This document shows positions 2,334-42,909 of a stretch of 64,000 nucleotides of DNA, piece by piece (the first letter of the stretch is position 1; each line of letters starts with the position of its first letter). A model generated the notes under the pieces. That model was given only the letters and a program-made list of their open reading frames with translations, had not been told where the DNA came from and did not search any database. A program made the position numbers and the translations under genes. Source of the stretch: Anaerolineae bacterium (GTDB lineage Bacteria; Chloroflexota; Anaerolineae; Anaerolineales; Anaerolineaceae); the NCBI GenBank assembly GCA_013178295.1, contig JABLWW010000007.1, positions 62,001 through 126,000 of the forward strand. The letters run 5' to 3'.

Positions 2334-2354
2334 AAGCCCAATCGCATACAGAAA

Positions 2355-27304: not shown

Positions 27305-27310
27305 TTTTAC
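27260..27310 (+). repeat. attL: 51-bp att repeat in the tRNA-Val 3' half
   Basis: Identical over 51 bases to 42859-42909, running from the anticodon stem through the tRNA end plus six bases. Flanking bases differ on both sides. Integrase lies 86 bases further in. This is the classic tRNA-directed attachment core. Confidence 0.95.
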
Positions 27311-27311
27311 A

Positions 27312-27350: not shown

Positions 27351-27395
27351 TTTTTTAACAGCATAGACCACATCCTTACTTTAATGGAATGATAT

Positions 27396-28274: not shown

Positions 28275-28352
28275 AGCTTTCCCACACTTTTATTATACGC
28301 TACTTTCGAGAGCGCATAAATTCACACTTACTCCACAATCCTTGTCCTGTCC

Positions 28353-28655
28353 TCATCCGCCTGAGCAATCCAGCACACCCTCACCCCTGTATGGGTTGAG
28401 CGCGTATGCTAGTGTACGCAGTGTCGCCACCAATGCCGCACGGCTGCTCTCGCGCACAACAATCGGCAGCTGTATCTCGCGCATTTTGACCTTCACCAGT
28501 CGCACCCGTCCGCCTGCTTCACCTGGCACTTCTTCCATCAGCGTTTCATAAGGCGGTACAGTATCGCCGATACGGTCAATCAATGACAAAATAGACCCGC
28601 TGTGCAGTGAGGTCTGTACTCCGTCCGCGTCAACCCATACCACCTGCTCAGACAT
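28353..28655 (-). pseudogene. Truncated distal tail (Dit-like) protein
   Basis: 100 residues matching the start of siphovirus distal-tail/tail-component proteins that follow the tape measure (YETLMEEVPGEAGGRVRL, LRTLAYALNPYRGEGVL). It stops after DCSGG, well short of the several hundred residues usual for the family. It overlaps the tape measure end by eight bases. The cut marks the left deletion boundary: no further tail, fibre or lysis genes lie before the integrase. Confidence 0.65.
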
Positions 28656-31413
28656 ACTGCCTCATCCTCTCCATGATGCGGTCAAGCTCACTCTCCGTCA
28701 AACTGCTGTCGCGGTAGTAGAAGTGATTCTCGTATGTAACCATTGTCGTCCCTCCCTGTGCCTCCGCCAGCAGCTTCTTGCTGTCGCGGTTCGAGACGAT
28801 CCACCCATCTGATGGCGGCAAAAACAACTCCGGCCCGCGCTCACCAACCAACACAGCCTCGTCTTTATAGACAAATCCACCTAATGCGCGTTGTGGCCGA
28901 TTCTCGTTGCTTGTTGATGTTCCTGGAGCATAGCTTGGCACACCTCCTCCGCTCCATCCCCCAAACGATGGATATTGGATTTTTGCAAAGATCGCATTTA
29001 ACTGGTTCACAAACGCCCTTGCCGCCGCAAAGGCTTCATCCTGCGTCGCCAAAAGCCCTTGTTTGAAGCCAGTACCAACTTTGGAGCCAAGCTTTGACCA
29101 GTCCTTATCAAGCTCCGTCCAAATCTTCTTGCCAAGCGTTTCTGCCGCTTTGCCGGTATCCGTAAATCCCGGCTTTACCCCATCCAGGATACCACTGCCA
29201 ATCTTCGTCCCTGTCCCCTTCCAGTCCGGCGTTGTCAGCGATTTCACCACAGAGTCGGCCGTTGTCTTGGCACTGTCCGTAACCGTTTTCATCGAACCGG
29301 TAAAAGCCTCCTTGCTTTCGCCCGCGCTCCTTCCCAGCACCTTGACCCCCTCGCCTGCGCTCCCCATTGATGCAATCAGGTTGCTGGCTTCCAGAGACGT
29401 TGCTCCCATAGAGGTCAGAAAACTGTACATATCCACAGAGCCATCCGCCGCATCCACGCGCAGCGCCTTGATTGCCTCATCGCTCTGGGTGAGCGGTATC
29501 ACGCCACTGCCAATCGCCGCAGTCAAGATATTAAAATTCTCTGCCAGCGCAATACTTTGCGGAGACATTAATCCAAACTCCAGCCCAATATTTTGTACCG
29601 CTGTTTTATACTGCTCCGCCGTAATCTGCCCGTTTTGCATCTGCGTTCCCAAATCCGCCAGCGCCTGGCGTGCTAGATCAACATCTTGCGGCTTGACCCA
29701 CTCCATTGCCAGCTGCGTCTGCGCCGTTGCCCGTTCAATGATTGCCTGCGCCGCCTCACGTTCAGCCTGCACCAGCTGCTGCGCCGCCATTGCCGCCTCC
29801 ATGTCAACAGAGACAGATTGCTGCGTAACACCAAGCTTATTTGCCTGTGATGCCGCAAGCTCGTCCATCGCCGACCGCAGATCGCCAAAGTGTGTAATCC
29901 CCTGCTGCGCAACATCGTTCATCCCGCGCTGTGCCTCAATGCCTTGCCAGGTAGCATCATTCATCAACCACTGTTGCCGTACGATCTCTACCGCCTGCTG
30001 CCCCATGTACTCACCGCGTATGCGGTACAGATTCCCCTCAGCATCAATCAACATCCCATATTTCGCCGCGAGATTCTCCATCTGCGCAGCATACTCAGTA
30101 TAGGAGGTTGCTGTAGCGCGTACAGCCTGCGCCTGCCGCTCAAACTCGTCGGTAACTATTTTCTGCCCAGCGTACAACGCACCAAAAACAGCCGCCAACG
30201 GAGCAAGCTGCAGTGCAAGACTTGCCGCCGTCGCTCCCAGCGTTCCCATACCAGCCGCGCCTAATGCGCTAGTGAGCGTTAGCCCGCTCTGATACGCCCT
30301 CAGCGCCGTCGCTGCCGCGCTGAACCCCTTGACTGCAAGTGATAACCCAGATGCAATATCAGCAAACAGCCCAAAAAGCATAGGACGTAAAACAACTAGC
30401 CCGGCAAAACCTACCGCGGCTTTCCTTACACCATCGCTTAACCCGCTAAACCAGGTAACAACGTCCTTTCCTCTGCTGACAACATCCGCGACAAACTCCC
30501 CAAACGCGGCTCCAAGCTCTTTGATTCTCTGCTGTACTTCTCTTGTCTGAAAAGCCTCCACCATCGTTGTCATCAGCGGTCGGATTGCGTCCGCCGTCCC
30601 CTCGAAAAACTCACGCAAACCAATATCCTTAATATCCTGCAAACTGCTAATCAGCCCGGCAAACGTCTCGGACTGCCGCGCCGCCGCACCGCCAAAATCC
30701 CTTTCCAATGCCTGCACAATTGCTTCAATCGCCTGCTTTGCCGGTATCAGCCCCTTCTCGCGCAGGTCAATCACCTGCTCAGTTGTCATCCCAAACGCAT
30801 CAGCCAGTATCTGCGTCACCGGCAGCCCTGCCTCTGTTAGTTGGCGCATCTCCATGCCTGTCAGTTTGCCAGCCGCACGTACTTGCCCCAAAGCAAGCGC
30901 GATACGCCCCATCGTGTCCTCACTCGCCCCGCTACCAGCCGCAAAATCAATCATCGCCTGCGTCAGACGCTGCGCCTCTTTGCTCGTAAACCCATACGCC
31001 TGCGCCATGCGAAACGCTGACGCAACCCCGCTCTGCGTAAACGGGCTTTTGATCGCAAGCTGCTGCGTCCATCCCAGCAGGTCTTTCGCCCGACCCGCCG
31101 ACATCTCCATCGCCTCAGCCATGTTGCGCGCCGCTCCGCTGCTCAACGCCTCACGCGCCGCCAGGCTTTGCAGACTCATCCCAAGCCGCTCATAGCTGGC
31201 GTAGCTCCTCACTGCTTCCACACCCAAGTTACGCAGACCGCCAATTGCCTGCTGTAACAGGTTCGCACCAAGCACACCGGCAAACACATCTTGCAGCCCT
31301 CTGCCATCTCCGCTAACTTTCTTGAGCAGATTGCTGACAGACATCAGCCCTTTTTCAGCCGCGCTTGTTTTCGCTTCAACAACGACCATCAACTGTGCTG
31401 CTGTTATCGCCAT
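28648..31413 (-). CDS. Phage tail tape measure protein
   Basis: 921 residues. The N-terminal tape-measure domain (about 70-270) contains SPFTQSGVASAFRMAQAYGF and GKLTGMEMRQLTEAGLPVT. Hydrophobic segments occur near 330-430, then long helical and Ala/Gln-rich stretches. The C-terminal region (about 850-890) holds FVYKDEAVLVGERGPELFLP, common at the end of tape measures. It sets tail length, implying a siphovirus tail of roughly 130-140 nm if 0.15 nm per residue holds. Confidence 0.93.
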   Translation of the reverse strand: MAITAAQLMVVVEAKTSAAEKGLMSVSNLLKKVSGDGRGLQDVFAGVLGANLLQQAIGGLRNLGVEAVRSYASYERLGMSLQSLAAREALSSGAARNMAEAMEMSAGRAKDLLGWTQQLAIKSPFTQSGVASAFRMAQAYGFTSKEAQRLTQAMIDFAAGSGASEDTMGRIALALGQVRAAGKLTGMEMRQLTEAGLPVTQILADAFGMTTEQVIDLREKGLIPAKQAIEAIVQALERDFGGAAARQSETFAGLISSLQDIKDIGLREFFEGTADAIRPLMTTMVEAFQTREVQQRIKELGAAFGEFVADVVSRGKDVVTWFSGLSDGVRKAAVGFAGLVVLRPMLFGLFADIASGLSLAVKGFSAAATALRAYQSGLTLTSALGAAGMGTLGATAASLALQLAPLAAVFGALYAGQKIVTDEFERQAQAVRATATSYTEYAAQMENLAAKYGMLIDAEGNLYRIRGEYMGQQAVEIVRQQWLMNDATWQGIEAQRGMNDVAQQGITHFGDLRSAMDELAASQANKLGVTQQSVSVDMEAAMAAQQLVQAEREAAQAIIERATAQTQLAMEWVKPQDVDLARQALADLGTQMQNGQITAEQYKTAVQNIGLEFGLMSPQSIALAENFNILTAAIGSGVIPLTQSDEAIKALRVDAADGSVDMYSFLTSMGATSLEASNLIASMGSAGEGVKVLGRSAGESKEAFTGSMKTVTDSAKTTADSVVKSLTTPDWKGTGTKIGSGILDGVKPGFTDTGKAAETLGKKIWTELDKDWSKLGSKVGTGFKQGLLATQDEAFAAARAFVNQLNAIFAKIQYPSFGGWSGGGVPSYAPGTSTSNENRPQRALGGFVYKDEAVLVGERGPELFLPPSDGWIVSNRDSKKLLAEAQGGTTMVTYENHFYYRDSSLTESELDRIMERMRQYV

Positions 31414-31460
31414 CTCACAACCCGTATTGACATAAATCGTATAATAGATATGGAGGAATT

Positions 31461-31556
31461 ATGCGCCTTCTTGCCGACATCTTCTATCGCTCTCTTTCAC
31501 TGACCATCTGGATTGTGATCATTTTTCTGCTTCTTGTCCTCTATCGGTGTTCCTGA
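31461..31556 (+). CDS. Candidate small membrane peptide, opposite to the tail genes
   Basis: 31 codons on the strand opposite to the phage structural operon. GGAGG (31452-31456) lies four bases before the ATG, followed by a charged start and one strongly hydrophobic helix (LTIWIVIIFLLLVLY). It resembles small type I toxin or holin-like peptides, but no promoter with correct spacing is seen. It is partly antisense to the frameshifted part of the tail chaperone gene. Confidence 0.3.
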   Translation: MRLLADIFYRSLSLTIWIVIIFLLLVLYRCS

Positions 31557-31741
31557 TTTCGCACTCGATCTCTTCAAAAAACCTGCCCCACTCTGCCCAA
31601 TGCGCCGGGCGCTCCGCCAACTCCCACACCGGCACACCCATCCGCTTGGCAAGCTGGTACAGATTCCACACCTCCACAATCCAGTCCGGCGGTGGCAGTG
31701 TGCGCCCGTTGCTCGCCAGCCACCGCCTCAGTCTTTTTTTT
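31519..31741 (-). other. -1 frameshift site and downstream frame of the tail chaperone
   Basis: The 0 frame reads GAG GAA AAA AAA GAC TGA, giving a slippery A AAA AAA heptamer just before the stop. After a -1 slip the frame continues for about 71 codons (starting RLRRWLASNGRTLPPPDW) to a TGA at 31519-31521. This tract has no start codon of its own near its beginning and encodes a convincing helical protein rich in Trp, Arg and Glu. Lambda-type phages make their G-T tail chaperone in the same way at this position. Confidence 0.8.
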
Positions 31742-32051
31742 CCTCGCCGTCAGGTGCGCGCACATCGTCAACAATTCCCGTGATCACCGCCGCCAAAAAA
31801 TCCACCGGCAGCTTCTCTGCAAACTCACGCGTCGGTTTGATCCGCTGCCCTTTGTCGTCCAGCACATCCCAGCTTTCCACCACCATCCCAACTTGCGCTG
31901 CTAAACTCTCTGCGCTCTCCAAACCGCGCAGTTCTCGCAACGCCGCCGGAGTGATCGCATTCAGCCTGTACGTCACATCCAGACTCTCGCCATCGTAATA
32001 GACCGTGATTGTCCTGGTCTTTGCGTTTAAATCTTTGTATCGTATCGCCAT
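31728..32051 (-). CDS. Tail assembly chaperone (short, G-like form)
   Basis: 107 residues (MAIRYKDLNAKTRTITVYYD), ending in GEEKKD at the slippery site. The ATG at 32051 has GAGGTG upstream, while an in-frame start at 32072 is less likely. It lies between the tail tube and tape measure genes, where siphoviruses encode their tail chaperone. The -1 frameshift product would be about 177 residues (31519-32051). The chaperone coats the tape measure before tube polymerisation. Confidence 0.8.
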   Translation of the reverse strand: MAIRYKDLNAKTRTITVYYDGESLDVTYRLNAITPAALRELRGLESAESLAAQVGMVVESWDVLDDKGQRIKPTREFAEKLPVDFLAAVITGIVDDVRAPDGEEKKD

Positions 32052-32058
32052 GCACACC

Positions 32059-32295
32059 TCACAGATAATCAAATCGGATGCGTTTTAGTCGCTCTGCCTC
32101 TCCAACATGCCCAATATGCTCGATCAGCCGGTCGAGATCATCTGGCGTCAGCGCATCAAACCGCACCTCTCCACCAATAACAGTCTCGCTGAGCCAGCGC
32201 AGCTTATCGCCAGTCTCCACCGCCTGGCATTGCCCAACCTCAGCGTCAAACGTCAGTTTGACCGGCATAAGCGCAAAAACTTCAACATGGATCAT
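32059..32295 (-). CDS. Hypothetical phage tail-region protein
   Basis: 78 residues from the ATG at 32295 (MIHVEVFALMPVKLTFDAE). Not recognised. A GTG at 32361 would add 22 residues of Gln/Lys/His repeat encoded by a 9-base tandem repeat. A similar ATGATC start with a GAGGTTTTTGC stretch occurs just before the repeat (about 32368-32397), as if the 5' end had been duplicated. An ATG at 32268 is a further candidate. The stop overlaps the alternative start of the tail chaperone gene. Confidence 0.6.
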   Translation of the reverse strand: MIHVEVFALMPVKLTFDAEVGQCQAVETGDKLRWLSETVIGGEVRFDALTPDDLDRLIEHIGHVGEAERLKRIRFDYL

Positions 32296-32297
32296 CT

Positions 32298-32360
32298 GTT
32301 GCTTCTGTTGCTTCTGTTGCTTCTGTTGCCTGTGTTGCTTCTGTTGCCTGTGTTGCTTCA
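32298..32360. repeat. Seven tandem copies of a 9-base unit
   Basis: GTTGCTTCT and its variant GTTGCCTGT alternate over 63 bases (pattern 3 + 1 + 1 + 1, plus GTTGCTTCA). A unit of nine keeps the reading frame, so copy number changes would only lengthen a repeat peptide. Confidence 0.9.
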
Positions 32361-32393
32361 CTTCTGACCAACATAAGCAAAAACCTCAACTGA

Positions 32394-33371
32394 TCATAGC
32401 GTCTGCTGCTTGTTGACCACGCGGATCGTGAACGCCTTGCCCCAAGACGCATCATACACACCCTGCATCTCATACTCAACGGCGAAGACACCATCCGTAT
32501 CTTTGAACTCCGACACATTCGCAACCTTAACCGCCATGTCAATCTGCAGCAGGTAGTAGTATGTGCTGCCAATCAGTGCGCCTTGAGCTTTGATCCGCAT
32601 AAATTTGGTATCACCTGCACGCAATGGAGTCAGCAGCCCCATCCCGGCCGCATTTGCCTCCACAAGCACATTACAGCTCAGCTTTGGCGCAGTCTCAACT
32701 GTTGCCACATAAGACGACTCAGACGCATCCAATACCCACAGCGGATTGAAACGGTCGGAAAGCTCCCACACCACCTCAAGCACCCTATCAAGTTTCGTTG
32801 TGCCCAAAGCCGCATACGTATCGTCTATATAGTAACTTACCTGTGTTGGCAACACGGGCACTTGCTCGATGCTTGTTGGGCTGCTTGTCATCGTAATCCC
32901 ATCCGTCAGCGTCTTGCCAAATAAACTCCCGTCAAGCTCGATCTTACTGCGGCTGAAGCTCAGCTTAAGGCTGTTGACCTGCGCTCCGACAATGCGGTGC
33001 GCCCGTGTACTGTCGCCCTGCTCGATGCTGAACGTTTTGGTTGTATCCGCAGACGCATTTGCACTGCTGAAATCCCAAATCACCGGGCTGCCAGAAACCG
33101 CCACCACAGACCCGCTCGTCGCATTGACCAGGCTCGACAACGGATAGATGATCTCGCTGTATGTCGGCTGCCCGCTGAGCTTTGCCTCAACCCATTCCTT
33201 GCCCAATGCAGAGAGAGTTGGATACTTACTCCCCATTGGACGGAACATCTCCACTTCCGCCTTAATACCAGGCTCGATGCTCAAAGAGTTTAGCTTCTTG
33301 TCCGCCGCAACACTCCCGGATGTTTCCACCCCGATCTGTACGCCCTGAAAAACACTCGCACGTTCTGCCAT
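32394..33371 (-). CDS. Major tail tube protein
   Basis: 325 residues, beta-rich. It runs from MAERASVFQGVQIGVETSGS through a long set of strands to a C-terminal YEMQGVYDASWGKAFTIRV. Size, composition and position (after the tail terminator gene, before the chaperone and tape measure) fit a siphovirus tube protein. The translation start carries GAAAGGAGTTTGAAATG, identical over 17 bases to that of the capsid gene at 36501, suggesting strong, matched expression. Confidence 0.82.
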   Translation of the reverse strand: MAERASVFQGVQIGVETSGSVAADKKLNSLSIEPGIKAEVEMFRPMGSKYPTLSALGKEWVEAKLSGQPTYSEIIYPLSSLVNATSGSVVAVSGSPVIWDFSSANASADTTKTFSIEQGDSTRAHRIVGAQVNSLKLSFSRSKIELDGSLFGKTLTDGITMTSSPTSIEQVPVLPTQVSYYIDDTYAALGTTKLDRVLEVVWELSDRFNPLWVLDASESSYVATVETAPKLSCNVLVEANAAGMGLLTPLRAGDTKFMRIKAQGALIGSTYYYLLQIDMAVKVANVSEFKDTDGVFAVEYEMQGVYDASWGKAFTIRVVNKQQTL

Positions 33372-33386
33372 TTCAAACTCCTTTCT

Positions 33387-33797
33387 CTATTGCGTCCACA
33401 CCCGGAACTCGATTCCAAGATGCCGGTACTGGACGCCATCAACAACTTCTGGATACATAATTGTCCGCTCTTCCACGCACCCAATCACAATGCCGTTTGT
33501 CACATCCCCGCTTGCGCCATGCAGTACACCGCGGACGCGGTTCATGATCGTTTCCAGCGTGCTGTAGCTTTCAGCTTTGTCAACACCTTTAACCATCACA
33601 AGCTCGTCCCACATGATGACCGCCGTACCAACACCCATCACTGTACGGCTGCTCACCCGTTGCACCAGCACAAACGGATAGACTGCACTTTGCGGTACAA
33701 CCCCGCTGTAGATGCGCCCGGCAACCAGAGACTGCATGGTCGCATCTTCCCTCAGCAGCCCAACGACCCAGCGCTCTGCGGTCAACACGCTTGTCAT
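33387..33797 (-). CDS. Tail terminator/completion protein
   Basis: 136 residues (MTSVLTAERWVVGLLREDA, then YPFVLVQRVSSRTVMGVGTAV and a closing GIEFRVWTQ). The pattern and gene order match tail-terminator proteins of the DUF3168/gpU kind that cap the tail tube. Start and stop overlap with the gp10-like gene by four bases (ATGA). Confidence 0.72.
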   Translation of the reverse strand: MTSVLTAERWVVGLLREDATMQSLVAGRIYSGVVPQSAVYPFVLVQRVSSRTVMGVGTAVIMWDELVMVKGVDKAESYSTLETIMNRVRGVLHGASGDVTNGIVIGCVEERTIMYPEVVDGVQYRHLGIEFRVWTQ

Positions 33798-34141
33798 CGC
33801 AGCATCGCCTCCAATCGGCGCATCGCCTCAAGAAACGCCGGGCGCACCCGCTCAGCCGCCTGCGTCATATAGTGATAACCAGTGAACGAGTGATGCCCAA
33901 ACTCAACGTAGCTCGCGTACTCAGTATGTGGGGCAACGATGGCTCGCAGGTCACCTTCCATATCAGTCTGGATGCTGCTCTTCAGCAAGCCGGTATCAAC
34001 ACCGTGCCCCTCATACAGCTCACTTTTCGCCTGCGCCTCAACGTCAAAAGCCGCCTTGCGCACAACCATACTGGTTACCTGTGGCAGCTTTGCAGCGATC
34101 TCCGGTAGCCTGTCAAACGTGATCCTGATTGCGCCGCTCAT
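33794..34141 (-). CDS. HK97 gp10-like head-tail connector protein
   Basis: 115 residues from the ATG at 34141, which has GGAGG upstream (the longer frame adds 13 residues without support). It shows the family signature DTGLLKSSI followed by YASYVEFGHHSFTGYHY, near the centre. Such proteins join the head stopper to the tail. Both ends overlap neighbouring genes by four bases. Confidence 0.82.
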   Translation of the reverse strand: MSGAIRITFDRLPEIAAKLPQVTSMVVRKAAFDVEAQAKSELYEGHGVDTGLLKSSIQTDMEGDLRAIVAPHTEYASYVEFGHHSFTGYHYMTQAAERVRPAFLEAMRRLEAMLR

Positions 34142-34497
34142 AGAACCTCCGCGCACAGCACACGCCGCGCCGTTTCCCATTCACCGCCGCACAGTACCGC
34201 CTTGACCTCAAACGTCCGCCCGTTGATCACAATCCGTTGGCTTTCGTTGACCTCCGTCCCCGCCGGTAATGTGACGACATACGGCACTGAGATACCCAGC
34301 CGTTCAGCCGCCACCTTCTCAACCGGATGAAATCCACTCCACGACAAACGCCCCATCACGCTGCCAGATGACACGTACGTTACAATCCGCCCGCCCGTGT
34401 CATCTGTAACTGCCGAGCCGCTCATGAGTATGCACACGTCCGGCAGAGCACTCGCCTGCCCACTGCGCATACTGAGTATCTCGGTTGCGGATAGCAT
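34138..34497 (-). CDS. Head-closure/stopper protein
   Basis: 119 residues from the ATG at 34497 with GAGG five bases ahead. Strand-rich, with GGRIVTYVSSGSVMGRL, VPYVVTLPAGTEVN and RIVINGRTFEVKAV, a pattern shared with phage head-tail joining (gp16/gp9-type) proteins. It lies seven bases after the connector gene. Assigned mainly by order and fold pattern. Confidence 0.6.
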   Translation of the reverse strand: MLSATEILSMRSGQASALPDVCILMSGSAVTDDTGGRIVTYVSSGSVMGRLSWSGFHPVEKVAAERLGISVPYVVTLPAGTEVNESQRIVINGRTFEVKAVLCGGEWETARRVLCAEVL

Positions 34498-34504
34498 AAT
34501 GTCC

Positions 34505-34936
34505 TCACAGATTGATAGTCCACGAGCCAAGACCATACATGATCTCTTCGCCGGTTAAGTCTGCCGGTGGCTTTGGTTCAACTTGCAAGGTGAGTGTTCC
34601 AGGCTTACGCCGCGCATTCCATATTCGGCTTTGCGCTACAGCATTGATGTACGCCTGACTGCGTTGATAGCTTGCTCCATCTGCATTGAAATCGAAATTT
34701 CCTGCCAACGCAGCTGCCTTCTCCAGCCAGATATGTGCCGCTGCCGCAGCTAGATCATACGTTGCTGCCCATGCACTGTTAACCGTTCCATCTTTTAATA
34801 ACGGCGAATTTCCAGCAGCATCTATCGTAGGATATGTTTCGATGACAGCCTTTAGCACGTCATCGCTATATGTTGCAGATGTCGATTCAGCAATCATCCG
34901 CCGCAATTTCGCTATATCTGCCGCTGTCGCTGTCAT
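34505..34936 (-). CDS. Head-tail adaptor (gp6-like connector)
   Basis: 143 residues. The N-terminus, IAKLRRMIAESTSATYSDDVLKAVIE, is typical of small helical adaptor proteins that bind under the portal. A mid-part rich in Ala (DLAAAAAHIWLEKAAAL) follows. It sits directly after the capsid-associated genes. Confidence 0.7.
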   Translation of the reverse strand: MTATAADIAKLRRMIAESTSATYSDDVLKAVIETYPTIDAAGNSPLLKDGTVNSAWAATYDLAAAAAHIWLEKAAALAGNFDFNADGASYQRSQAYINAVAQSRIWNARRKPGTLTLQVEPKPPADLTGEEIMYGLGSWTINL

Positions 34937-34948
34937 CGAAACCTCCCA

Positions 34949-35536
34949 CTATTCAACTATGTATACCAGCTTCAGCTTCTTTGACCCATTCGGCGTTCCT
35001 GCTGGTATGTACATGTTGGCACTTAGCGACCCAGAGCTACATACCCACGATCCAGAATCTGCCTGATTGTCAAATACTTGTTTCAGCACCAAAGCAGAGC
35101 CGCTCTCGATCAGATGTGGTATTCCAAATTTATCTGTCGTTCCAACCGCAATCGAACCACTTGTAGCTGGTAGTGTAATCTGCAACACCGACTTGAACGC
35201 TTTTGAGCCTTCGCCAGCAGACACCGATCCACTCACGTACAATACATCACTGATCGTCTGATCTGCAATATCTTTTCCCTGCACAACAACACTACCGCTC
35301 GTTCCAGCATCAGAGCCTATCGCATTCAAAACACGCGGAACATCTGGCTGACTAAACCCACTGGTCAAAATCTGGCTGCCACTTACCGGCGTCATTGGCA
35401 AAATTGATGCACTGCCAGACGTAGCAGGTGTAATCTCATAAACTGCCACAACACCAAGCGTCAGACCGGTTACTGCCTTGCCACCATCTCCTTGCAGCGG
35501 CTTTGCTGGTTCCGTTTTATACGGATAGTATCCCAT
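34949..35536 (-). CDS. Ser/Gly-rich phage structural protein, possibly capsid decoration
   Basis: 195 residues from the ATG at 35536 with GAGG ahead (GTG at 35539 is the alternative). Strongly Ser/Gly/Val-rich with repeating strand patterns (TSGSASILPMTPVSGS, TLPATSGSIAVGTTDKFG). It lies between the capsid and the adaptor. The role is inferred from position only. Confidence 0.55.
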   Translation of the reverse strand: MGYYPYKTEPAKPLQGDGGKAVTGLTLGVVAVYEITPATSGSASILPMTPVSGSQILTSGFSQPDVPRVLNAIGSDAGTSGSVVVQGKDIADQTISDVLYVSGSVSAGEGSKAFKSVLQITLPATSGSIAVGTTDKFGIPHLIESGSALVLKQVFDNQADSGSWVCSSGSLSANMYIPAGTPNGSKKLKLVYIVE

Positions 35537-35556
35537 CACGCACCTCTTTTCAGCAA

Positions 35557-36501
35557 TTACACTGTCAGTACACCAAATGGATACCGGTTACCGCTGGATG
35601 GTTGAACACGGTTTGCGGGATTAGGAACAGCGAAACCAAGCCGCATCGTTACCCGTAGCGCAACCATGTCCTGTTGCAACAGGTTATAGACGATTACACC
35701 GCTGCCATCCTGAATGACGCCAGTATCAAACACCTTCCAGTTCATATCCTGCCGTATGGAATACACCAGCTGATCCCATTGCCCAACAATCAGTGGATAA
35801 GACGAATTCATTGCTCCATTTGTTGGAAATAGAATTGGCGCTCCATCCAACGTATATTGACCAGGTGTCTGCATTGAAGGTTGGAAAATCAACTGCCCGT
35901 CGGTTGTGCGTACACCGCGTAGCTTACCGCGCATTGTCATATGCGCGATTGAACCGCTCATCATGAAACCATCTGCTTCAATCTTCGCAACAACGCCATT
36001 CTCGCCAAGAATATCCTCATAGAGGTCAGCGCCGGTGCCAATTGCAACCGCATTGCCAGCGGAATTTGCCGCCGTGACAATCGCCGCCGGCCAGCTCGCC
36101 GGTTTGTTCGTGCCAAACAGCACCGCCATATCAATTGCCTGACCAAGCGCAGTCTGTATATCAGGCAATACCATATCCCAGATCGGTGCAGAGCTGTCAT
36201 CCAACACCGCTTGCGGAATCGGCACAATCACTGCTAACTCCTCAGCAGTAATCGTGACGTCCTGCCAGTTCACCTCACTGGTCTGCTTCAATCCAGTATC
36301 TCCGCTTACAAAATACGCCGTCGCCAGAGCGCTCATCACCGGCAGTTTCGTCTGATAGCGCGCCATATCGCGCAATCTACGTCCCAAGCGCATTACTGCG
36401 CTCTGCTCGGCAGCTACGCCGCGCGCAATTTCATTCGAGTATTCCACCGGCACAAGTCCGGCAACATCAGTTCGATTAATATCAGTGTTATAAGTAGGCA
36501 T
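35557..36501 (-). CDS. Major capsid protein (HK97-fold, set B)
   Basis: 314 residues. The N-arm (MPTYNTDINRTDVAGLVPVEY) leads to a core with VNWQDVTITAEELAVIVPIPQAVLDDSS and a C-terminal ALRVTMRLGFAVPNPANR, the usual layout of HK97-fold capsids of the phage capsid family. No cleavage protease gene is present. The preceding gene encodes the scaffold. It differs clearly from the capsid fragment fused to the MuF toxin at 38222-39760. Confidence 0.88.
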   Translation of the reverse strand: MPTYNTDINRTDVAGLVPVEYSNEIARGVAAEQSAVMRLGRRLRDMARYQTKLPVMSALATAYFVSGDTGLKQTSEVNWQDVTITAEELAVIVPIPQAVLDDSSAPIWDMVLPDIQTALGQAIDMAVLFGTNKPASWPAAIVTAANSAGNAVAIGTGADLYEDILGENGVVAKIEADGFMMSGSIAHMTMRGKLRGVRTTDGQLIFQPSMQTPGQYTLDGAPILFPTNGAMNSSYPLIVGQWDQLVYSIRQDMNWKVFDTGVIQDGSGVIVYNLLQQDMVALRVTMRLGFAVPNPANRVQPSSGNRYPFGVLTV

Positions 36502-36519
36502 TTCAAACTCCTTTCAAAT

Positions 36520-37047
36520 TTATCTTCCTGCCGCTCTGCGAATCGCCGCATTCATATCAAACTTGCCTTCTGCGTTTCCACCGGCGCCATCTCCAGCATT
36601 CCCACTTCCAGCAGGTTTCACTCCAAAGAACTCCGGAGCAATTTTCTTCAGCGTTTCCCAGTCTGGCAGTCCCGTTTTGCTATTAAACAATCCTTCTGCA
36701 ATTGCCACCGCGTAAGCCGCTTTCGGATTTCGACAGCCAATCTCTGGCTTTGACGCCTCTTCCAAAAAAGCCGCTCGTCGCTCAGCAGCCTCCAATCGGG
36801 CACTAATATCCTTCAAAGCCTTCTCGGCTTCACTGCCCTTCTCAGCCTTCCCGGCAAGTTCTCTGATTTGTTTCGCCAGTTCATCCCGTTCCTGGCGCGT
36901 CGCACTCACTGTGTTTTTCAACCCCGTGATATGCGCCGAATAAAGAGCTTTAACTTTCTCATCCTGCTTATCAAGCCATGTCTCGAATGTCTCATTCTGT
37001 GACTCATGAGAATTGCTCTCATTTTGATTACCTTGTTCCTCAGGCAT
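36520..37047 (-). CDS. Scaffold protein (set B)
   Basis: 175 residues. A charged coiled coil (about 45-100: TRQERDELAKQIREL, AEKALKDISARLEAAERR) is flanked by a polar N-terminus and a Gly-rich stretch (GSGNAGDGAGGNAEG), ending in a basic helix MNAAIRRAAGR. This is the usual layout of phage minor structural/scaffold proteins encoded directly before the capsid. AGGAGG precedes the ATG. Confidence 0.78.
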   Translation of the reverse strand: MPEEQGNQNESNSHESQNETFETWLDKQDEKVKALYSAHITGLKNTVSATRQERDELAKQIRELAGKAEKGSEAEKALKDISARLEAAERRAAFLEEASKPEIGCRNPKAAYAVAIAEGLFNSKTGLPDWETLKKIAPEFFGVKPAGSGNAGDGAGGNAEGKFDMNAAIRRAAGR

Positions 37048-37055
37048 CTCGCCTC

Positions 37056-37400
37056 CTATCGAAACATAAACGTTGCTTTACCTGTTACCACCGCAACCAA
37101 CAGCGCTACCATCACACCCGTCAGAATACTTAGTATCCAGCGCAATATCTTGTTCGTCATCGAAATCTCTGCTACCGCCTTCTCTAAAATCCCGATCCGT
37201 GTATCGTGATCTTCGAGCTTCCGAAACACCTGCTCCAGCTTTGCATTGACAACCGGAAAGCATCCCGCCTCCGTCTGCTCCATTTTGCGGACACGATCTT
37301 CGATACCGTGCATGATGACTTTCATCTCTGAAAACTCTGCTGTGAGACGTTCTGCCAGATGATCAATCTGCGCCTGTAGTGCGCCAACACTTGTCGCCAT
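37056..37400 (-). CDS. XhlA-like small membrane protein
   Basis: 114 residues: a coiled-coil region (about 5-80, LAERLTAEFSEMKV, DHDTRIGILEKAVAEI) and one C-terminal membrane helix (ILRWILSILTGVMVALLVAVVTG). The layout is that of haemolysin XhlA-type phage lysis helpers. It follows the holin-like gene by three bases, so the two form a lysis pair, though no endolysin remains. Confidence 0.65.
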   Translation of the reverse strand: MATSVGALQAQIDHLAERLTAEFSEMKVIMHGIEDRVRKMEQTEAGCFPVVNAKLEQVFRKLEDHDTRIGILEKAVAEISMTNKILRWILSILTGVMVALLVAVVTGKATFMFR

Positions 37401-37403
37401 CGC

Positions 37404-37742
37404 TCACTTCGCCGAATAACTCTTACCGATGATCGGCAGACCGAGCAGAATCGAGTGCGCCAGCTTCGCACCACCAAGTTGCACAATGTAGCCAAAGACG
37501 ACCAGCAGCACATTGGCGATCTGCCCGGCTTGCTTGTCCAAAAACACAATGTCAACCGCTGGCTGGTACACATTGAGAAACAGCAGCACAGCCAACCCAA
37601 TCAGGTTGAGCGCCGCTGACCAGGCTTGTGCCTGCCCATCTTTGACTAATCCAGCAGTCTTGAGGATATTGATAATCGCAGCAATCAATGCCGCAAATCC
37701 TGCCAAAGCCCCCCATTGAGTAAGCAAAGAGTTTAAATCCAT
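37404..37742 (-). CDS. Holin-like membrane protein
   Basis: 112 residues from the ATG at 37742, which has GGAGGTG ahead (upstream in-frame codons cross a terminator and are excluded). Three hydrophobic segments (about 12-29, 43-60, 70-90), then a short polar end. Size, topology and the adjacent XhlA-like gene support a holin. It is the first gene after the leader terminator. Confidence 0.65.
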   Translation of the reverse strand: MDLNSLLTQWGALAGFAALIAAIINILKTAGLVKDGQAQAWSAALNLIGLAVLLFLNVYQPAVDIVFLDKQAGQIANVLLVVFGYIVQLGGAKLAHSILLGLPIIGKSYSAK

Positions 37743-37769
37743 TTTTTCACCTCCAAAAGTTTGTAAACG

Positions 37770-37804
37770 AAAAACCGCCCACACCTTTTCATGGTGTTGG
37801 GCGG
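37770..37804 (-). terminator. Intrinsic terminator in the leader of the holin gene
   Basis: Read on the minus strand, CCGCCCAACACC and GGTGTGGGCGG form a stem around a short ATGAAAA loop, followed by TTTTT. It lies between the promoter at 37839-37865 and the holin gene, so transcripts from that promoter would stop after some 60 nucleotides unless antitermination occurs. Confidence 0.85.
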
Positions 37805-37838
37805 AAACCAACAAAATACCGCGTATTCAGTTAATTAG

Positions 37839-37865
37839 ATTATAGCATAAAATCTCGGTTGTCAA
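37839..37865 (-). promoter_or_regulatory. Promoter before the holin leader terminator
   Basis: On the minus strand TTGACA (37865-37860) and TATAAT (37844-37839) are spaced 15 bases, with TGC directly before the -10 box (extended -10). The -10 overlaps the end of a decayed immunity-gene fragment. A similar TTTATGCTATAAT lies after the intact immunity gene at 40912. Confidence 0.7.
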
Positions 37866-37914
37866 GCCACGCCAGCCCAAATCTCTCAATAATTGGACTG
37901 ACCTTTTGCAACTC
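37840..37914 (-). pseudogene. 3' remnant of a third immunity-like gene
   Basis: The minus strand encodes ELQKVSPIIERFGLAWLDN before a stop at 37840-37842. This matches the end of the two intact small proteins nearby (ELEKVKPIAERLNLI and FAIVKPIAEKLKLTWYE). Upstream the frame meets a stop and a decamer repeat, so only the 3' end survives. Confidence 0.6.
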
Positions 37915-37918
37915 CTAC

Positions 37919-37958
37919 TTATGTCGCCTTATGTCGCCTTATGTCGCCTTATGTCGCT
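37919..37958. repeat. Tandem decamer repeat
   Basis: Three exact and one variant copy of TTATGTCGCC. It lies where the third immunity fragment loses its 5' part, so it may mark the breakpoint of that deletion. Confidence 0.85.
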
Positions 37959-37994
37959 ATATGACGCAATAGCGTAGACGGTAAACCTGTTTTA

Positions 37995-38249
37995 TTATTC
38001 ATACCATGTTAATTTAAGCTTCTCGGCAATTGGTTTGACTATCGCAAATCCTTCGAGTATTCTGGCATTTTCTTCCGGAGTAAACCAATCTCGGTAATGC
38101 AAATATCTCGCAATACCATCTGTCCATTCAAGCGAAAAAGTTGTTAACTGATTCGGGTCATTCATCAAGTCAGAAACAATATCAGAATCCATTAAATCAT
38201 TAATTTGACCCTCGATAATTTTTAATGAAATCTCTTGTTTCGTATCCAT
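37995..38249 (-). CDS. Probable immunity protein for the capsid-MuF toxin
   Basis: 84 residues, acidic, soluble, with no known domain. The start lies 28 bases inside the end of the toxin-like gene, so both are translationally coupled. Its C-terminus (VKPIAEKLKLTWYE) resembles that of the 89-residue protein at 40912-41181, which follows the other MuF gene in the same overlapping way. A small acidic gene overlapping the 3' end of a MuF toxin is the standard immunity arrangement. Function is inferred from this context. Confidence 0.6.
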   Translation of the reverse strand: MDTKQEISLKIIEGQINDLMDSDIVSDLMNDPNQLTTFSLEWTDGIARYLHYRDWFTPEENARILEGFAIVKPIAEKLKLTWYE

Positions 38250-39760
38250 CGAAAACTTTCCCGTTTTTTAGTCAATTGAATGATAACATCTTCGGGTTGA
38301 TACCCGGTCACCAGATAACCATATTGTACTTTATATTCCACAAAAATAAAATCACCCCCATTGCTTCCACGCCAATCTCGACTCCCTCGGACAAATCCAA
38401 TCTGCCATGCATCATTATATCTGGATACAAATACATCAGAATCTTGATCAAGAATAACCTCTTCTAGACTCCGTTTGTAATCCTCCAACGTGGTGCCATC
38501 CGGCCATTCTTGGTTAACAACAACGTGCTTGAGATAATGCCCAACATCAGTTGGAATCGTATCACCAATTTCCAGCTTTTTCCCATCCCAAACCTGTCCA
38601 CGTATTGATGTTCTAACCCGCATCATCTCTGTTGAACTGAACCCCGCATTCGCCACATGCCGCGCCACCCGTTCCAACTCTCCATGCGTCAACTCCCGCA
38701 ATCCCAACCCCGCTACTCGAATCAAATCGTCTGCTGAGTATTGACCGGCATTCTTCGCCGCGCCCATCAACGCCAGGCGCGTGTACCCTTTCGCCTTTTC
38801 TGCACCCAGCAACTCCACCAGGCTCTTCTCATACCGATGCGTCCCCCACTCACGCGACCGTTTGCGCCCAACTACATCCCCCAGCGCAAACTTCCCATCC
38901 TCCCACGCCGCATACTTCGCCGGTCCCAAAATCTTGATCTGTGTCTCAACAGGCAGTCGCTCAAACAGGTCAACGCCAAGCGTTATCTTTGGCGGAGTCT
39001 CCTCAACATCGCCAAAATCCAAACCATACTTGCGCCCAAGCTCCGCCCACGACCTGGTCGCTGGCACCATCGCACACCGCCCGTTGGGATGATCATCCAG
39101 CCGCTCATCCAGCGTGTGAAACGTCCCGTGCATCGCCCAGCACGCCGCACATGTACGCTCCCCCAGCGCGCTGTGCCAAATCCACCCATCCACCAAATCG
39201 CTGTTTGCCTGGTAACTCGCCCGTGTCGCCTCACGGTGCGCCCGCAGCGTCTCCGTCCGTGCAATCCTCAGCGCCCGGCTCAGCGTTGTCCCCAGCGCCT
39301 TGCGCGCCGAGCGGATAGTAGCGGCAGTGATGTCGGTACCACTGGTTCCCACCGAACCGGACAACCCAGCATACAGGGCAAACAAATCGTTCTCAATCGC
39401 CTCGGCAATTGCCGGAACAGCTGAATTGATATAGCGATCCATCAAATCCTGGTTCGCCTGCGCACGCGCCGGGTCTTCGATCAGAAAAGAAACTTCTTTG
39501 TGTTTGTTCAGGGTTACAGACAGATCAGCCCCGCCGCTTGGAGTTTGCAAAGTTACAGCAGTATTGGCTGACTTGTCTTGTGCTGTGAAAGTTCCAGGAT
39601 ATGGAATGTGCAGAACATCACCTACCTGGAACGTAGCAACATCAGTATCTTTAGTTACCAGTTTCGCCAATACAACATTTGAACGTAAAACTTCAAGTGC
39701 TTTCTGCGCCCAGATTTCTGGGATGAAAGCCGCAGCAGTCGTAGTCGTAATATTAGCCAT
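38222..39760 (-). CDS. Chimeric capsid-MuF protein with C-terminal toxin-like domain
   Basis: 512 residues. Residues 1 to about 152 are the start of a major capsid protein (MANITTTTAAAFIPEIWAQK, with DITAATIRSA at the end). From residue 153 the sequence switches to a MuF head-morphogenesis domain (RKALGTTLSRALRIARTE, Cys/His set TCAACWAMHG and HPNGRC). A helical linker follows (about 265-360), then a strand-rich C-terminal domain (about 385-512: KHVVVNQEWPDGTTL, WRGSNGGDFIFVEY, GYLVTGYQP). From residue 153 on it aligns throughout with the protein at 41160-42266. The junction near 39305 lies at a shared RK-x-L. GAGGTG precedes the ATG. Confidence 0.8.
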   Translation of the reverse strand: MANITTTTAAAFIPEIWAQKALEVLRSNVVLAKLVTKDTDVATFQVGDVLHIPYPGTFTAQDKSANTAVTLQTPSGGADLSVTLNKHKEVSFLIEDPARAQANQDLMDRYINSAVPAIAEAIENDLFALYAGLSGSVGTSGTDITAATIRSARKALGTTLSRALRIARTETLRAHREATRASYQANSDLVDGWIWHSALGERTCAACWAMHGTFHTLDERLDDHPNGRCAMVPATRSWAELGRKYGLDFGDVEETPPKITLGVDLFERLPVETQIKILGPAKYAAWEDGKFALGDVVGRKRSREWGTHRYEKSLVELLGAEKAKGYTRLALMGAAKNAGQYSADDLIRVAGLGLRELTHGELERVARHVANAGFSSTEMMRVRTSIRGQVWDGKKLEIGDTIPTDVGHYLKHVVVNQEWPDGTTLEDYKRSLEEVILDQDSDVFVSRYNDAWQIGFVRGSRDWRGSNGGDFIFVEYKVQYGYLVTGYQPEDVIIQLTKKRESFRWIRNKRFH

Positions 39761-39773
39761 AGTTACACCTCTT

Positions 39774-40379
39774 TCAATCTTCTAAAATACGTCCCTCCCG
39801 CATTGCCTGCATGATGGCATCGCGGTTGGCAGCAAAGAATCCTGGATCACGCAACTGCGAGCGCGTGAAGACTTGCTGACCTGAAACTCTTCCCTGCGCC
39901 GGGTTGGTGGGTGAAATAACCGATTGCTGTCCAGCAAGATACGGCTTTTTAGCAACCAGCTCTTTCAGCACCTTTTCCAGATTCGCCGGCTTGCCGTCTT
40001 CGTCAAACTCAATCTGTTTGAGATCAAGCAGACGATACGCCGCCTCTGGATCAACCACGCCAAGACGCGCGGCGTGCAGTTTGACCTCGTACTCCAGCGT
40101 CCTCGCCTGGAGAGACTGCTGATACTCGATCTCTTTGCGCTCTAGCTCCGCAAGCCGCTTTTGGAGACGCTCTTGTTCGGTCATCTTGGCCTCCTCATCT
40201 GCCTTGACCTTGCTCTCCAACTCGCGCAGACGCTTGCGGTACTCAGCTGCTTCGGCTCGCAGTTTGCGCACATACTCAGTATCAAAACGTTCTTCCTCCG
40301 CCGCCTGGGCTTCGGGCCGCTGTGCAACCTCCTGGGTTGCGCCATCTGTGACCGTCTGGGTCTGTTTTTCTTCGTCCAT
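39774..40379 (-). CDS. Scaffold protein (set A)
   Basis: 201 residues. A long charged coiled coil (about 35-105: EYRKRLRELESKVKADEEA, QERLQKRLAELERK) precedes a helical part and a C-terminal segment (FTRSQLRDPGFFAANRDAI). This is the usual layout of phage scaffold/minor structural proteins placed directly before the capsid gene. GGAG precedes the ATG. It differs in sequence from the scaffold at 36520-37047, supporting two separate head modules. Confidence 0.78.
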   Translation of the reverse strand: MDEEKQTQTVTDGATQEVAQRPEAQAAEEERFDTEYVRKLRAEAAEYRKRLRELESKVKADEEAKMTEQERLQKRLAELERKEIEYQQSLQARTLEYEVKLHAARLGVVDPEAAYRLLDLKQIEFDEDGKPANLEKVLKELVAKKPYLAGQQSVISPTNPAQGRVSGQQVFTRSQLRDPGFFAANRDAIMQAMREGRILED

Positions 40380-40382
40380 TTT

Positions 40383-40697
40383 TTACTCCGCTAACCTCTT
40401 AATAGACTCTGGAGGCTCTTCATCCAGTTCACGATACAAGCGAATCAGCGCCCGCGCCGCCTTGCGCTTCTCTTCCGGCGAGGCTTTCACCCCACCACGA
40501 GCACCGGCCAGGGCTGCCGCCGCCGCATGTACACCATTCCGATTCAGCGTGCCGTCCGGCTCGCGCACGGGCAACTTCGCCTGCGCTCTCGCTGTGTACT
40601 CTGACTTCGCCGGTTTGATCAGGCACGCCTCGTACCACTGTTCATCGCTGTAATCGCTCTCGCTAAATCGTGACCAGGGCTTATCACTGATAGTCAT
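40383..40697 (-). CDS. DUF6582-type phage protein
   Basis: 104 residues from the ATG at 40697, which has GAGGTG ahead. The block KLPVREPDGTLNRNGVHAAA followed by KAARALIRLYREL is seen in small phage proteins near prohead protease, portal or scaffold genes. The role is not established. It is three bases ahead of the scaffold gene. Confidence 0.65.
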   Translation of the reverse strand: MTISDKPWSRFSESDYSDEQWYEACLIKPAKSEYTARAQAKLPVREPDGTLNRNGVHAAAAALAGARGGVKASPEEKRKAARALIRLYRELDEEPPESIKRLAE

Positions 40698-40824
40698 GTC
40701 CACACCTCAGTTCAAACTGATTACCCAAAAACCTCCGTAGTAAACGTAAGTCATTGCTAACATCCGTTTCCACGTCCACAAACACTCAGTATCCAGAACG
40801 AAAAGACTTCTCATCATGCCAAAA

Positions 40825-40864
40825 CAAAAAACCCGGATGCAACACCTTTCGGCATTGCTCCGGG
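40825..40864 (-). terminator. Intrinsic terminator after the MuF-A/immunity-A pair
   Basis: Minus strand: CCCGGAGCAATGCC, loop GAAA, then GGTGTTGCATCCGGG and TTTTTT. It lies downstream of a promoter-like element at 40897-40926 and upstream of the scaffold operon, mirroring the arrangement at 37770-37865. Confidence 0.85.
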
Positions 40865-40896
40865 CTCGTACCTCGTGAGCAGTATTTTCAACTCAT

Positions 40897-40926
40897 ATTA
40901 TAGCATAAATTTTAAATCAGATTCAA
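40897..40926 (-). promoter_or_regulatory. Promoter-like element at the end of immunity gene A
   Basis: Minus strand: TTGAAT (40926-40921) and TATAAT (40902-40897) spaced 18 bases, with TGC before the -10. The TTTATGCTATAAT stretch is shared with the copy at 37839. The -35 box lies in the last codons of the immunity gene. Confidence 0.55.
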
Positions 40927-41181
40927 CCTCTCAGCGATTGGCTTGACTTTTTCTAACTCGTCAAGTAAATCATCAAACCGCTCTTTTTGCTCTGGCGTCA
41001 ACAGATACTGATTCTTCTTCAATACCTCGACCATGCTCATGGTTTCCTGCCAATCTGTAGCCAAAGCATAAAAACCAGTTTCATCACTCAAATCGTAAAG
41101 TTCTTGTTTGAGTGTTTCAATCTGACCAGCAATTGTTCGTAAAAAAATATCTGCCCGATTTATTTCATCTTGCGTAGCCAT
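40912..41181 (-). CDS. Probable immunity protein for the MuF-A toxin
   Basis: 89 residues, acidic and helical (IAGQIETLKQELYDLSDET, EKVKPIAERLNLI). It starts 22 bases inside the MuF-A gene end. It resembles, at its C-terminus, the small protein at 37995-38249 and the remnant at 37840. No known domain is recognised. The immunity role is inferred from overlap with, and repeated pairing to, the toxin-like genes. Confidence 0.6.
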   Translation of the reverse strand: MATQDEINRADIFLRTIAGQIETLKQELYDLSDETGFYALATDWQETMSMVEVLKKNQYLLTPEQKERFDDLLDELEKVKPIAERLNLI

Positions 41182-42266
41182 CGTATTTCGCTCCGATGAA
41201 CTTGTAACTGTTTTTGCAAATCAACTGGTTGAAAACCCGTTACCCAGAAACCATAACCATCTCGGTATTCAACCAAAATAAAATCACTACCACCAACCCC
41301 ACGCCATTGACCACTATCTGCAATGAAAGCGATTTGCCAGTAAACACATTGATACTTTGAAATCATTATACCATTCTCAGGACTTCGAATAACGGTGCGC
41401 AAACTTTCAAGATATTCATCCAGTGATGTCCCTTCTGGCCATTCCTGTCTTGCTAAAACGTGCTTGACAAAATGCCATTCATCCGCCGGTAAACGCTCTC
41501 CAACCTCCAGAGGTTTCCCCTTCCAAACAAGCCCAGCCATTTCTGGTTTTACTAAACTGGTATGTTCCCGATTGAATCCTGCCTTTGCAACCTTTTCAAC
41601 GATTTTTTGCAATTCATCATTGCTCAATTCGCGCAATCCAAATCCAACCGCTCGAATCAAATCCGATACGGAGTATTGCCCCGCATTCCTCGCTGCACCC
41701 ATCAGCGCCAGGCGCGTATACCCTTTCGCTTTCTCCTCTCCTAACACTTGTTCAAGGCTCTTCTCATACCGGTACGTCCCCCATATTGTTGACTCTGTTT
41801 GCCCAACAAGATCACTCAACGTAAATTGATCATCCTTCCACGCCGCCCACTTCGCCGGCCCCAAAATCCCGATCTGCTTCTCCGCCGGCAATTTATCAAA
41901 CAGAAGCACGCCTGGTTCAATTTCCGAATTCGTGTCTGGAACATCAGACAGGTCAATTCCGTACTGTTTCCCAATTTCCGCCCAGGTCTTTGTCTTCGGC
42001 ACCATCGCACAGCGTCCATTGGGATGATCATCCAGCCTCTCATCCAGCGTGTGAAACGTCCCGTGCATTGCCCAGCACGCCGCGCACGTCCGCTCATCTG
42101 CCGCGCTGTGCCAAACCCATCCTCTGACAATGTCGCTGTTCGCCTGGTAACTGGCGCGGGTGGCTTCACGATGCCCTCTCAGTGTTTCTGTACGAGCAAT
42201 GGTCAGCGCACGGCTCAACGTCGTTCCGAGCACTTTGCGCAGTTCAGTTAAAAAGTCGCCAACCAT
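41160..42266 (-). CDS. MuF-domain head protein with C-terminal toxin-like domain (5' truncated)
   Basis: 368 residues from the ATG at 42266 (a GTG at 42281 is also possible). No ribosome site is visible. The MuF domain (about 5-110) carries RKVLGTTLSRALTIARTE, TCAACWAMHG and HPNGRC. A helical linker with ILGPAKWAAW and YTRLALMGAARNAGQY follows, then a strand-rich C-terminal domain with KHVLARQEWPEGTSL, WRGVGGSDFILVEY and FWVTGFQP. Full MuF proteins have an N-terminal region of 100 or more residues, missing here. It is clearly homologous to the chimera at 38222. The tail resembles BECR-fold nuclease toxins only loosely. The activity is unproven. Confidence 0.75.
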   Translation of the reverse strand: MVGDFLTELRKVLGTTLSRALTIARTETLRGHREATRASYQANSDIVRGWVWHSAADERTCAACWAMHGTFHTLDERLDDHPNGRCAMVPKTKTWAEIGKQYGIDLSDVPDTNSEIEPGVLLFDKLPAEKQIGILGPAKWAAWKDDQFTLSDLVGQTESTIWGTYRYEKSLEQVLGEEKAKGYTRLALMGAARNAGQYSVSDLIRAVGFGLRELSNDELQKIVEKVAKAGFNREHTSLVKPEMAGLVWKGKPLEVGERLPADEWHFVKHVLARQEWPEGTSLDEYLESLRTVIRSPENGIMISKYQCVYWQIAFIADSGQWRGVGGSDFILVEYRDGYGFWVTGFQPVDLQKQLQVHRSEIRWLRKMK

Positions 42267-42296
42267 TTTTGGGACAAACACTAGAACGTTTGTATA

Positions 42297-42324
42297 TTGA
42301 CAGAATGCTCAAAACGTTTATAAT
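42297..42324 (+). promoter_or_regulatory. Consensus promoter for the DUF3800 leader
   Basis: TTGACA (42297-42302) and TATAAT (42319-42324), spacing 16, both perfect. It starts a plus-strand transcript through a structured leader into the DUF3800 gene. Confidence 0.88.
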
Positions 42325-42330
42325 GAAATT

Positions 42331-42392
42331 GCGGTCGGGAGAGCTGCAGAAGGCGGTTCGTTCGCGCAGGCGACTCGGCTGCATTCTTTTTT
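42331..42392 (+). ncRNA. Structured leader upstream of DUF3800 (candidate DUF3800 RNA motif)
   Basis: A GC-rich 50-base segment with TGCAG (42345-42349) facing CTGCA (42379-42383), an inner GCG-TTCG-CGC-like hairpin, and a closing ATTCTTTTTT run, then GGGGAG and the ATG. Several conserved RNA classes named after DUF3800 were described upstream of genes of this family. I cannot say which class, if any, this matches. Confidence 0.5.
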
Positions 42393-42407
42393 AAGTGGGG
42401 AGAGAAC

Positions 42408-42734
42408 ATGTATTTGCTCTATCTTGATGATTCCGGTTCTCCTGGTAATCCAAACGAAGATTATTTTGTGTTAGGTGGTATTTGTATCTCTGAAGCCAGT
42501 GTTCGCTGGCTTTCTCATAGATTAGATCAAATCGCCTGCGTATACGGCGAGCAGGTAGAATTACATTATGAAGACCTGGCGGCACGCTTCAACAATCACC
42601 TTGAACAAAACGTCAGCACGGAAAGACATCAGGAAAGAGGATTAATCATTCTAGATAAATCTTCGTATGAGACAGGTTTGCAAAGTCTGACAATTAATTT
42701 GAGTTATGCGGACAACCCGCAACGAGAACGTTAA
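42408..42734 (+). pseudogene. Internally deleted DUF3800 protein
   Basis: 108 residues. The start (MYLLYLDDSGSPGNPNEDYF, then LGGICI) is the DUF3800 N-terminus with the acidic Asp pair of a ribonuclease-H-like fold. After about residue 48 it jumps to a segment normally late in the protein (LIILDKSSYETGLQSL), then ends. Full members have 230-260 residues, so some 90 internal residues and the C-terminus are gone. It is probably inactive. It is the last gene before attR. Confidence 0.7.
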
Positions 42735-42805
42735 AAATCGGAATGTATTAACAATCACATCCTTTGCAATTGTGCACATTTAAAAAACGATACCATTACA
42801 AAAAC

Positions 42806-42819
42806 CTGTCGAAGTAATG
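42806..42819. repeat. Inverted 14-bp element, right copy
   Basis: CTGTCGAAGTAATG is the exact reverse complement of 27315-27328. It lies 40 bases inside attR, where integrase arm sites would be expected. Confidence 0.45.
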
Positions 42820-42858
42820 AGTATGTTTTTGCCAGACAACCGCGTCCTTCAGCCGTTC

Positions 42859-42909
42859 TCCCTTACACGGATGGGGTCGTAGGTTCGAGTCCTATACCGC
42901 CCATTTTAC
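42859..42909 (+). repeat. attR: second copy of the 51-bp att repeat
   Basis: Identical to the tRNA-Val 3' half at 27260-27310. The 5' half of the tRNA is absent here, so it is a boundary copy only. The region 42735-42858 before it holds no gene. Confidence 0.95.

Follow-up and report, generated by a model that had tools for sequence, protein, structure and literature searches.

Type III toxin-antitoxin systems such as ToxIN, AbiQ and CptIN consist of one promoter, one or more RNA units, a Rho-independent terminator and a protein gene, and the terminator between the RNA and the toxin helps to hold the antitoxin in excess (PMC5086642). Phage-borne pseudo-ToxI mimics of the antitoxin RNA also exist (PMC3475682). 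In Clostridioides difficile, the prophage protein AbiF is accompanied by RCd22, a structured noncoding RNA with two abiF motifs which is antitoxin-like in cis and in trans and binds the toxic AbiF (PMC12373285). The accessory nucleases of CRISPR V-A2 and VI-F, which are tied to RNA-based immunity, are DUF3800 proteins with an RNase H fold (PMC10910872, PMC12669027); these are TPR-fused or CRISPR-linked, whereas no CRISPR link was seen at the loci described here.

DUF3800 RNAs make up several Rfam classes for which we found no stated function, and no toxin-antitoxin role for DUF3800 was proposed in the literature found. The motifs themselves were reportedly described in a 2017 paper. The window, the whole 64-kb stretch of Anaerolineae DNA analyzed here, carries a member of one of these classes. 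In a covariance-model scan against Rfam, RF02915 (DUF3800-VI) matched positions 42332-42381 on the + strand with 47.8 bits, 12.8 bits above the gathering score of 35 bits used as cut-off, and the match spanned model positions 1-52, the full length of the model, with an E-value of 7e-7 across the whole window. It was one of four Rfam matches above cut-off in the window, and no other Rfam class matched at 42332-42381. The original prediction of a DUF3800 RNA class at this site is thus borne out by the cmscan check it had called for, and the assignment to DUF3800-VI is correct; the RNA is a further member of a known family. It shares with RF02915 the sequence, the three-way junction and the place upstream of DUF3800, and differs in that its partner gene is broken. 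No second DUF3800-VI RNA was found elsewhere in the source genome, while one of 60 relatives (G009) carries an RF02915 RNA of 52.4 bits, likewise without DUF3800. A T-box leader (RF00230, 102.7 bits) lies at 2350-2653 (+) of the window.

With its full closing helix the RNA occupies 42330-42383 (+), a segment that folds into a three-way junction at -28.5 kcal/mol (z -2.8), a value equaled by one of 200 shuffled sequences and in keeping with the foldable segment originally claimed. All three stems form in the window sequence on folding: P1 of 10 bp (42330-42339/42374-42383), P2 of 7 bp (42341-42347/42353-42359) and P3 of 4 bp (42362-42365/42370-42373). The promoter upstream had been called perfect, and the sigma-70-type site at 42297-42324 (+) does match the consensus at 12 of 12 positions (-35 TTGACA at 42297-42302, a 16-nt spacer, and -10 TATAAT at 42319-42324). 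Three promoter-like sites occur in 300 nt at this locus, where shuffles give 0.3 on average, and the promoter would have transcription begin close to the 5' end of P1. On the other side of the RNA, TCTTTTTT lies one base 3' of P1 and is followed by GGGGAG and then by ATG 42408, so that the T-run (42385-42392) and the good ribosome-binding site (42397-42402, 5 nt before the ATG) are both where they had been described. P1 and the T-run together form an intrinsic-terminator-like end, a feature also present in relatives. A simple hairpin scan called no terminator here, presumably because P1 closes the junction.

The gene that follows belongs to a 15.6-kb prophage element integrated in tRNA-Val (27260-42909) and bounded by an exact 51-bp direct repeat of the tRNA-Val 3' end and its flank, with attL at 27260-27310 and attR at 42859-42909. 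A tyrosine integrase (27396-28274, +; PF00589, E 1.8e-37; PHROG integrase) adjoins attL, and the element also contains head, tail and tape measure genes. The RNA and the DUF3800 pseudogene are the final items before attR, a usual position for cargo. A tRNA-Gly at 14916 was also considered as the attachment site and gave no match. Two proteins of the element (38222-39760 and 41160-42281, -) both contain a Mu-F domain and resemble each other in the C-terminal part; the former has a P22-coat-like N-terminus, as if capsid and Mu-F genes had been fused by deletion.

The remnant of DUF3800 (PF12686) is an open reading frame of 108 aa at 42408-42734 (+), with its ATG 25 nt downstream of the RNA. It matches PF12686 with 32.4 bits (cut-off 21; E 2e-7) over profile positions 1-98 of 149. 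When aligned with relatives, it retains profile positions 1-45 and 111-161 of 248, which means that some 65 codons are missing internally and that the 3' part is gone beyond about residue 161. In the family alignment six acidic residues are invariant or near-invariant (D7, E55, D146, E151, D183 and D194), and these are candidate active-site residues; D183 and D194 were lost from the window protein with its C-terminal third. Judged by its alignment, the frame is a pseudogene of the DUF3800 family that lacks the full-length fold and the full set of conserved acidic residues. No other DUF3800 of the same subfamily was found in the source genome.

Pattern scans over viral contigs and about 85,000 genomes yielded 42 distinct true RNAs from Acidobacteriota, Planctomycetota, Chloroflexota, Cyanobacteria, Bacteroidota, Proteobacteria and other phyla. 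Ten mostly G+C-rich matches were dropped as chance, having neither a T-run nor DUF3800 (L018, L019, L020, L032, L033, L042, L045, L047, L052 and L054), and L173 was dropped because it lies within a coding gene and below cut-off. In a second pattern scan of phages, all matches except L131 fell in contigs whose DUF3800 was known beforehand. In the alignment of the 42 homologous RNAs, standard pairs fill 96.1% of pair cells and both sides change in 11 of the 21 pairs; when the partners are slid against each other, pairing falls to 33-46%. The covariation score was 0.314 against 0.163 in shuffled alignments, and none of 500 shuffles scored as high. About 19 positions were prescribed by the search pattern, and conservation there is therefore not independent evidence; P3, which the pattern left free, covaries most. 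The covariation asked for in the original prediction is therefore present, and it supports a three-way junction in DUF3800-VI RNAs generally. Almost all genomes have just one RNA locus, the exception being a Syntrophorhabdus genome with three copies, and for this reason spread as a MITE-like mobile element made of internal-deletion derivatives is unlikely.

Related loci share a common layout across phyla: a promoter, a three-way-junction RNA at about +1, an intrinsic terminator and DUF3800. In 22 of 40 loci, the window included, the distance from the end of the best -10 element to P1 is exactly 5 nt, which would have the RNA start at about +1, and the mean promoter score of the loci is 8.7 against 6.5 in shuffles. 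Relatives have either a T-run right after P1 or a separate hairpin and T-run between the RNA and the gene. Of 39 intact DUF3800 genes, 34 have a terminator-like structure no more than 70 nt from the start codon, compared with 80 of 312 shuffled sequences and 21 of 208 other ORFs of the same loci under the same criterion (p about 4e-22). Two tandem RNAs occur in five arrays (L003, L005/L007, L028, L044 and L049), and in all of these except L049 a separate hairpin terminator stands between the RNAs and the gene. At one locus of an isolate genome, that of Zavarzinella formosa (L017), the RNA and an intact DUF3800 are transcribed away from each other, and the RNA has its own promoter and its own terminator-like hairpin. 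The placement of promoters and terminators, the tandem copies and the divergent Zavarzinella locus suggest that the RNA of the relatives is probably a separately terminated small RNA rather than a 5' UTR, and the term leader in the original prediction is probably the wrong picture.

The same order of promoter, three-way junction, terminator and gene was retained in loci found through the protein: in viral contigs, two Pseudomonas phages, plasmids, small E. coli and Klebsiella plasmids, and Chloroflexota and Acidobacteriota genomes. All intact DUF3800 proteins of the window subfamily that were encountered had such an RNA, with the RNAs outside RF02915 recognized by inspection and single-sequence folding rather than by a model. 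More distant DUF3800 genes (L113-L116, L120, L123 and L126) showed no such RNA by eye, so the link between RNA and protein holds for the window subfamily only.

The gene is broken or absent beside an intact RNA in 24 of 48 RNA-first loci. Among the 39 determinable loci found by pattern, window included, the gene is intact in 19, broken in 14 and absent in six; nine further loci, from covariance-model scans of genomes in two other phyla, comprise five intact and four broken or absent. The claim of an intact RNA next to a deleted protein therefore holds for the window, where a full-length RF02915 match stands beside a gene without its middle and end, and the situation is met again in roughly half of the related loci. 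Gene loss takes the form of truncation, frameshift or in-frame internal deletion, although sequencing error could account for a few of the single frameshifts. The RNA scores just as well where the gene is broken (66.0 bits) as where it is intact (65.2 bits). On phage contig L004, a perfect DUF3800-VI RNA at 904-955 lies directly upstream of the terminase large subunit and portal genes, and no DUF3800 was found in the 16.7 kb of this contig. None was found in the Syntrophorhabdus genome either, whose three dispersed RNA copies (L135, L136 and L137) include at least two with a recognizable promoter and a downstream G+C-rich hairpin. In three Acidobacteriota remnants the RNAs are 89-93% identical, the promoters about 75% and the leaders 56-81%. 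The RNA is conserved above its flanks in two Acidobacteriota pairs (p 8e-5 and 8e-4); in the L016/L058 pair, which has one shared gene break, the excess is not significant (p 0.12). The opposite case, a gene kept and its RNA lost, was seen zero times, for which a rough size argument gives a chance of about 0.04-0.06. Part of this asymmetry is expected from target size and search method, as the gene exceeds the RNA in length about 15-fold and intact RNAs were used for the search.

An AlphaFold2 model of DUF3800 (pLDDT 89, pTM 0.90) predicts an RNase HII-like fold, in agreement with the published RNase H fold of the family (PMC10910872, PMC12669027). No solved relatives were found by sequence. 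The first-ranked Foldseek match of the model was RNase HII (E 3e-4); comparisons with RNase HII and HIII gave Z-scores of 8-10 (up to 9.8) and compact alignments of about 150 residues at an rmsd of 3-4 Å. RNase HII and HIII were the closest of the solved folds listed for the model, and ToxN was not among them.

We favor, with moderate confidence, a toxin-antitoxin-like reading in which a separately terminated, trans-acting RNA restrains a harmful DUF3800, and in which the window locus is a decayed prophage cargo module. An intact module would comprise a strong promoter, one or two RNAs of about 55 nt at the transcription start, each forming a three-way junction, then a terminator and DUF3800. 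Most transcripts would end at the terminator and give free RNA, and the minority that read through would serve as DUF3800 mRNA, hence the RNA would always be in excess. The free RNA would bind DUF3800 and hold the predicted nuclease in check. After loss of the gene the RNA could persist because it is harmless, or because it may be useful against a DUF3800 arriving by phage or plasmid. This reading is suggested by the type III-like anatomy, the likeness to AbiF/RCd22 and the existence of phage antitoxin mimics. The type III layout is matched by the terminator-like structures of the intact relatives and by P1 and the T-run in the window. The known type III antitoxins, however, come as tandem repeats and are pseudoknots, while the window has one copy, two copies are found only in the five related arrays, and covariation supports a three-way junction for DUF3800-VI; ToxN is an endoribonuclease, whereas DUF3800 has a predicted RNase HII-like fold. 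With AbiF/RCd22 the locus has in common a prophage-borne protein and a noncoding RNA motif known from comparative genomics. The proteins differ (Abi_2/AbiD/F against DUF3800) and the RNAs are unrelated, and the function shown for AbiF/RCd22 is only inferred for DUF3800-VI.

Two other functions for the RNA would account for parts of these data. The RNA could act in cis, either as an attenuator in the 5' UTR or as a protein-binding leader, and so tune DUF3800 expression, perhaps autoregulatorily, which would make the window copy a useless leftover. That the RNA precedes the gene and runs in the same direction in nearly all loci agrees with this, a terminator right before the gene suits attenuation, and Rfam types RF02915 as Cis-reg. 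That label omits, however, that the relatives form a promoter-to-terminator unit which is sometimes tandem, divergent or gene-less. A leader is hard to reconcile with the divergent Zavarzinella RNA and its own terminator-like hairpin, with three RNAs kept in a Syntrophorhabdus genome devoid of DUF3800, with the gene-less RNA of the phage contig, or with tandem copies followed by a constitutive-looking hairpin, and we consider it unlikely. We are equally doubtful of the RNA as a scaffold or guide needed by a DUF3800 nuclease in phage defense, that is, as part of a ribonucleoprotein effector without a toxin-antitoxin pair. An RNA cofactor of a nuclease would yield much of the same anatomy, and the modeled RNase HII-like fold and weak PADLOC candidate matches are consistent with it, as are the presence of DUF3800-family RNase H-fold proteins at CRISPR V-A2 and VI-F loci and the noted association of DUF3800 with noncoding RNA (PMC10910872, PMC12669027). 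Yet a cofactor should be dispensable without its protein, gene-less RNAs are common and one genome has three of them, and no long variable stretch that could serve as a guide is obvious in the RNA. Restraint of a harmful DUF3800 by the RNA is therefore preferred over both.

A separate question is what the window copy does at present. The module may simply be dead, with the 55-bp RNA still intact because the 750-bp gene beside it was the larger target and was hit first. This is a serious possibility, if slightly short of an even one, and it is compatible with RNA restraint in the module at large, since it bears on this one copy and its present role alone. It is favored by the target-size argument, by abrupt truncations in MAG loci, and by the absence of significant excess constraint on the RNA in L016/L058, where the gene break is clearly shared. 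On the other hand, the RNA is equally good in broken and intact loci, it exceeds promoter and leader in conservation in two of three Acidobacteriota pairs, and an orphan copy sits beside terminase on the phage contig. The window RNA may be a relic retained for protection against addiction, or simply a recent leftover. The original suggestion of an independent role for this RNA is plausible.

The reading of RNA restraint can be extended, as a tentative and rather doubtful proposal, to all DUF3800 RNAs: they would be three-way junctions of one shared topology acting as antitoxins of RNase HII-fold toxins, and the gene-less prophage and phage copies, among them the window RNA and that of contig L004, would be anti-addiction or anti-defense mimics. 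If so, they would constitute a large unrecognized type III-like class over phages, plasmids and many phyla. RNA restraint of DUF3800, if confirmed, would already bring both a new fold and an RNA of new architecture to the RNA-neutralized toxins, and would suggest RNA mimicry by phages.

Two further groups of RNAs were also observed. Small plasmids of E. coli (3.6-6.9 kb) and Klebsiella carry a diverged RNA, a strong terminator and DUF3800 as a main cargo gene; in the 3604-bp plasmid NZ_CP104685 (L008), of this E. coli/Klebsiella group, the diverged RNA locus spans 1570-1685. Promoter-driven three-way-junction RNAs upstream of DUF3800 that reached no Rfam cut-off (L097-L109 and L165) were found in Chloroflexota and at one Acidobacteriota locus. 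They show the same three-way topology on folding and apparently represent unlisted DUF3800 RNA classes.
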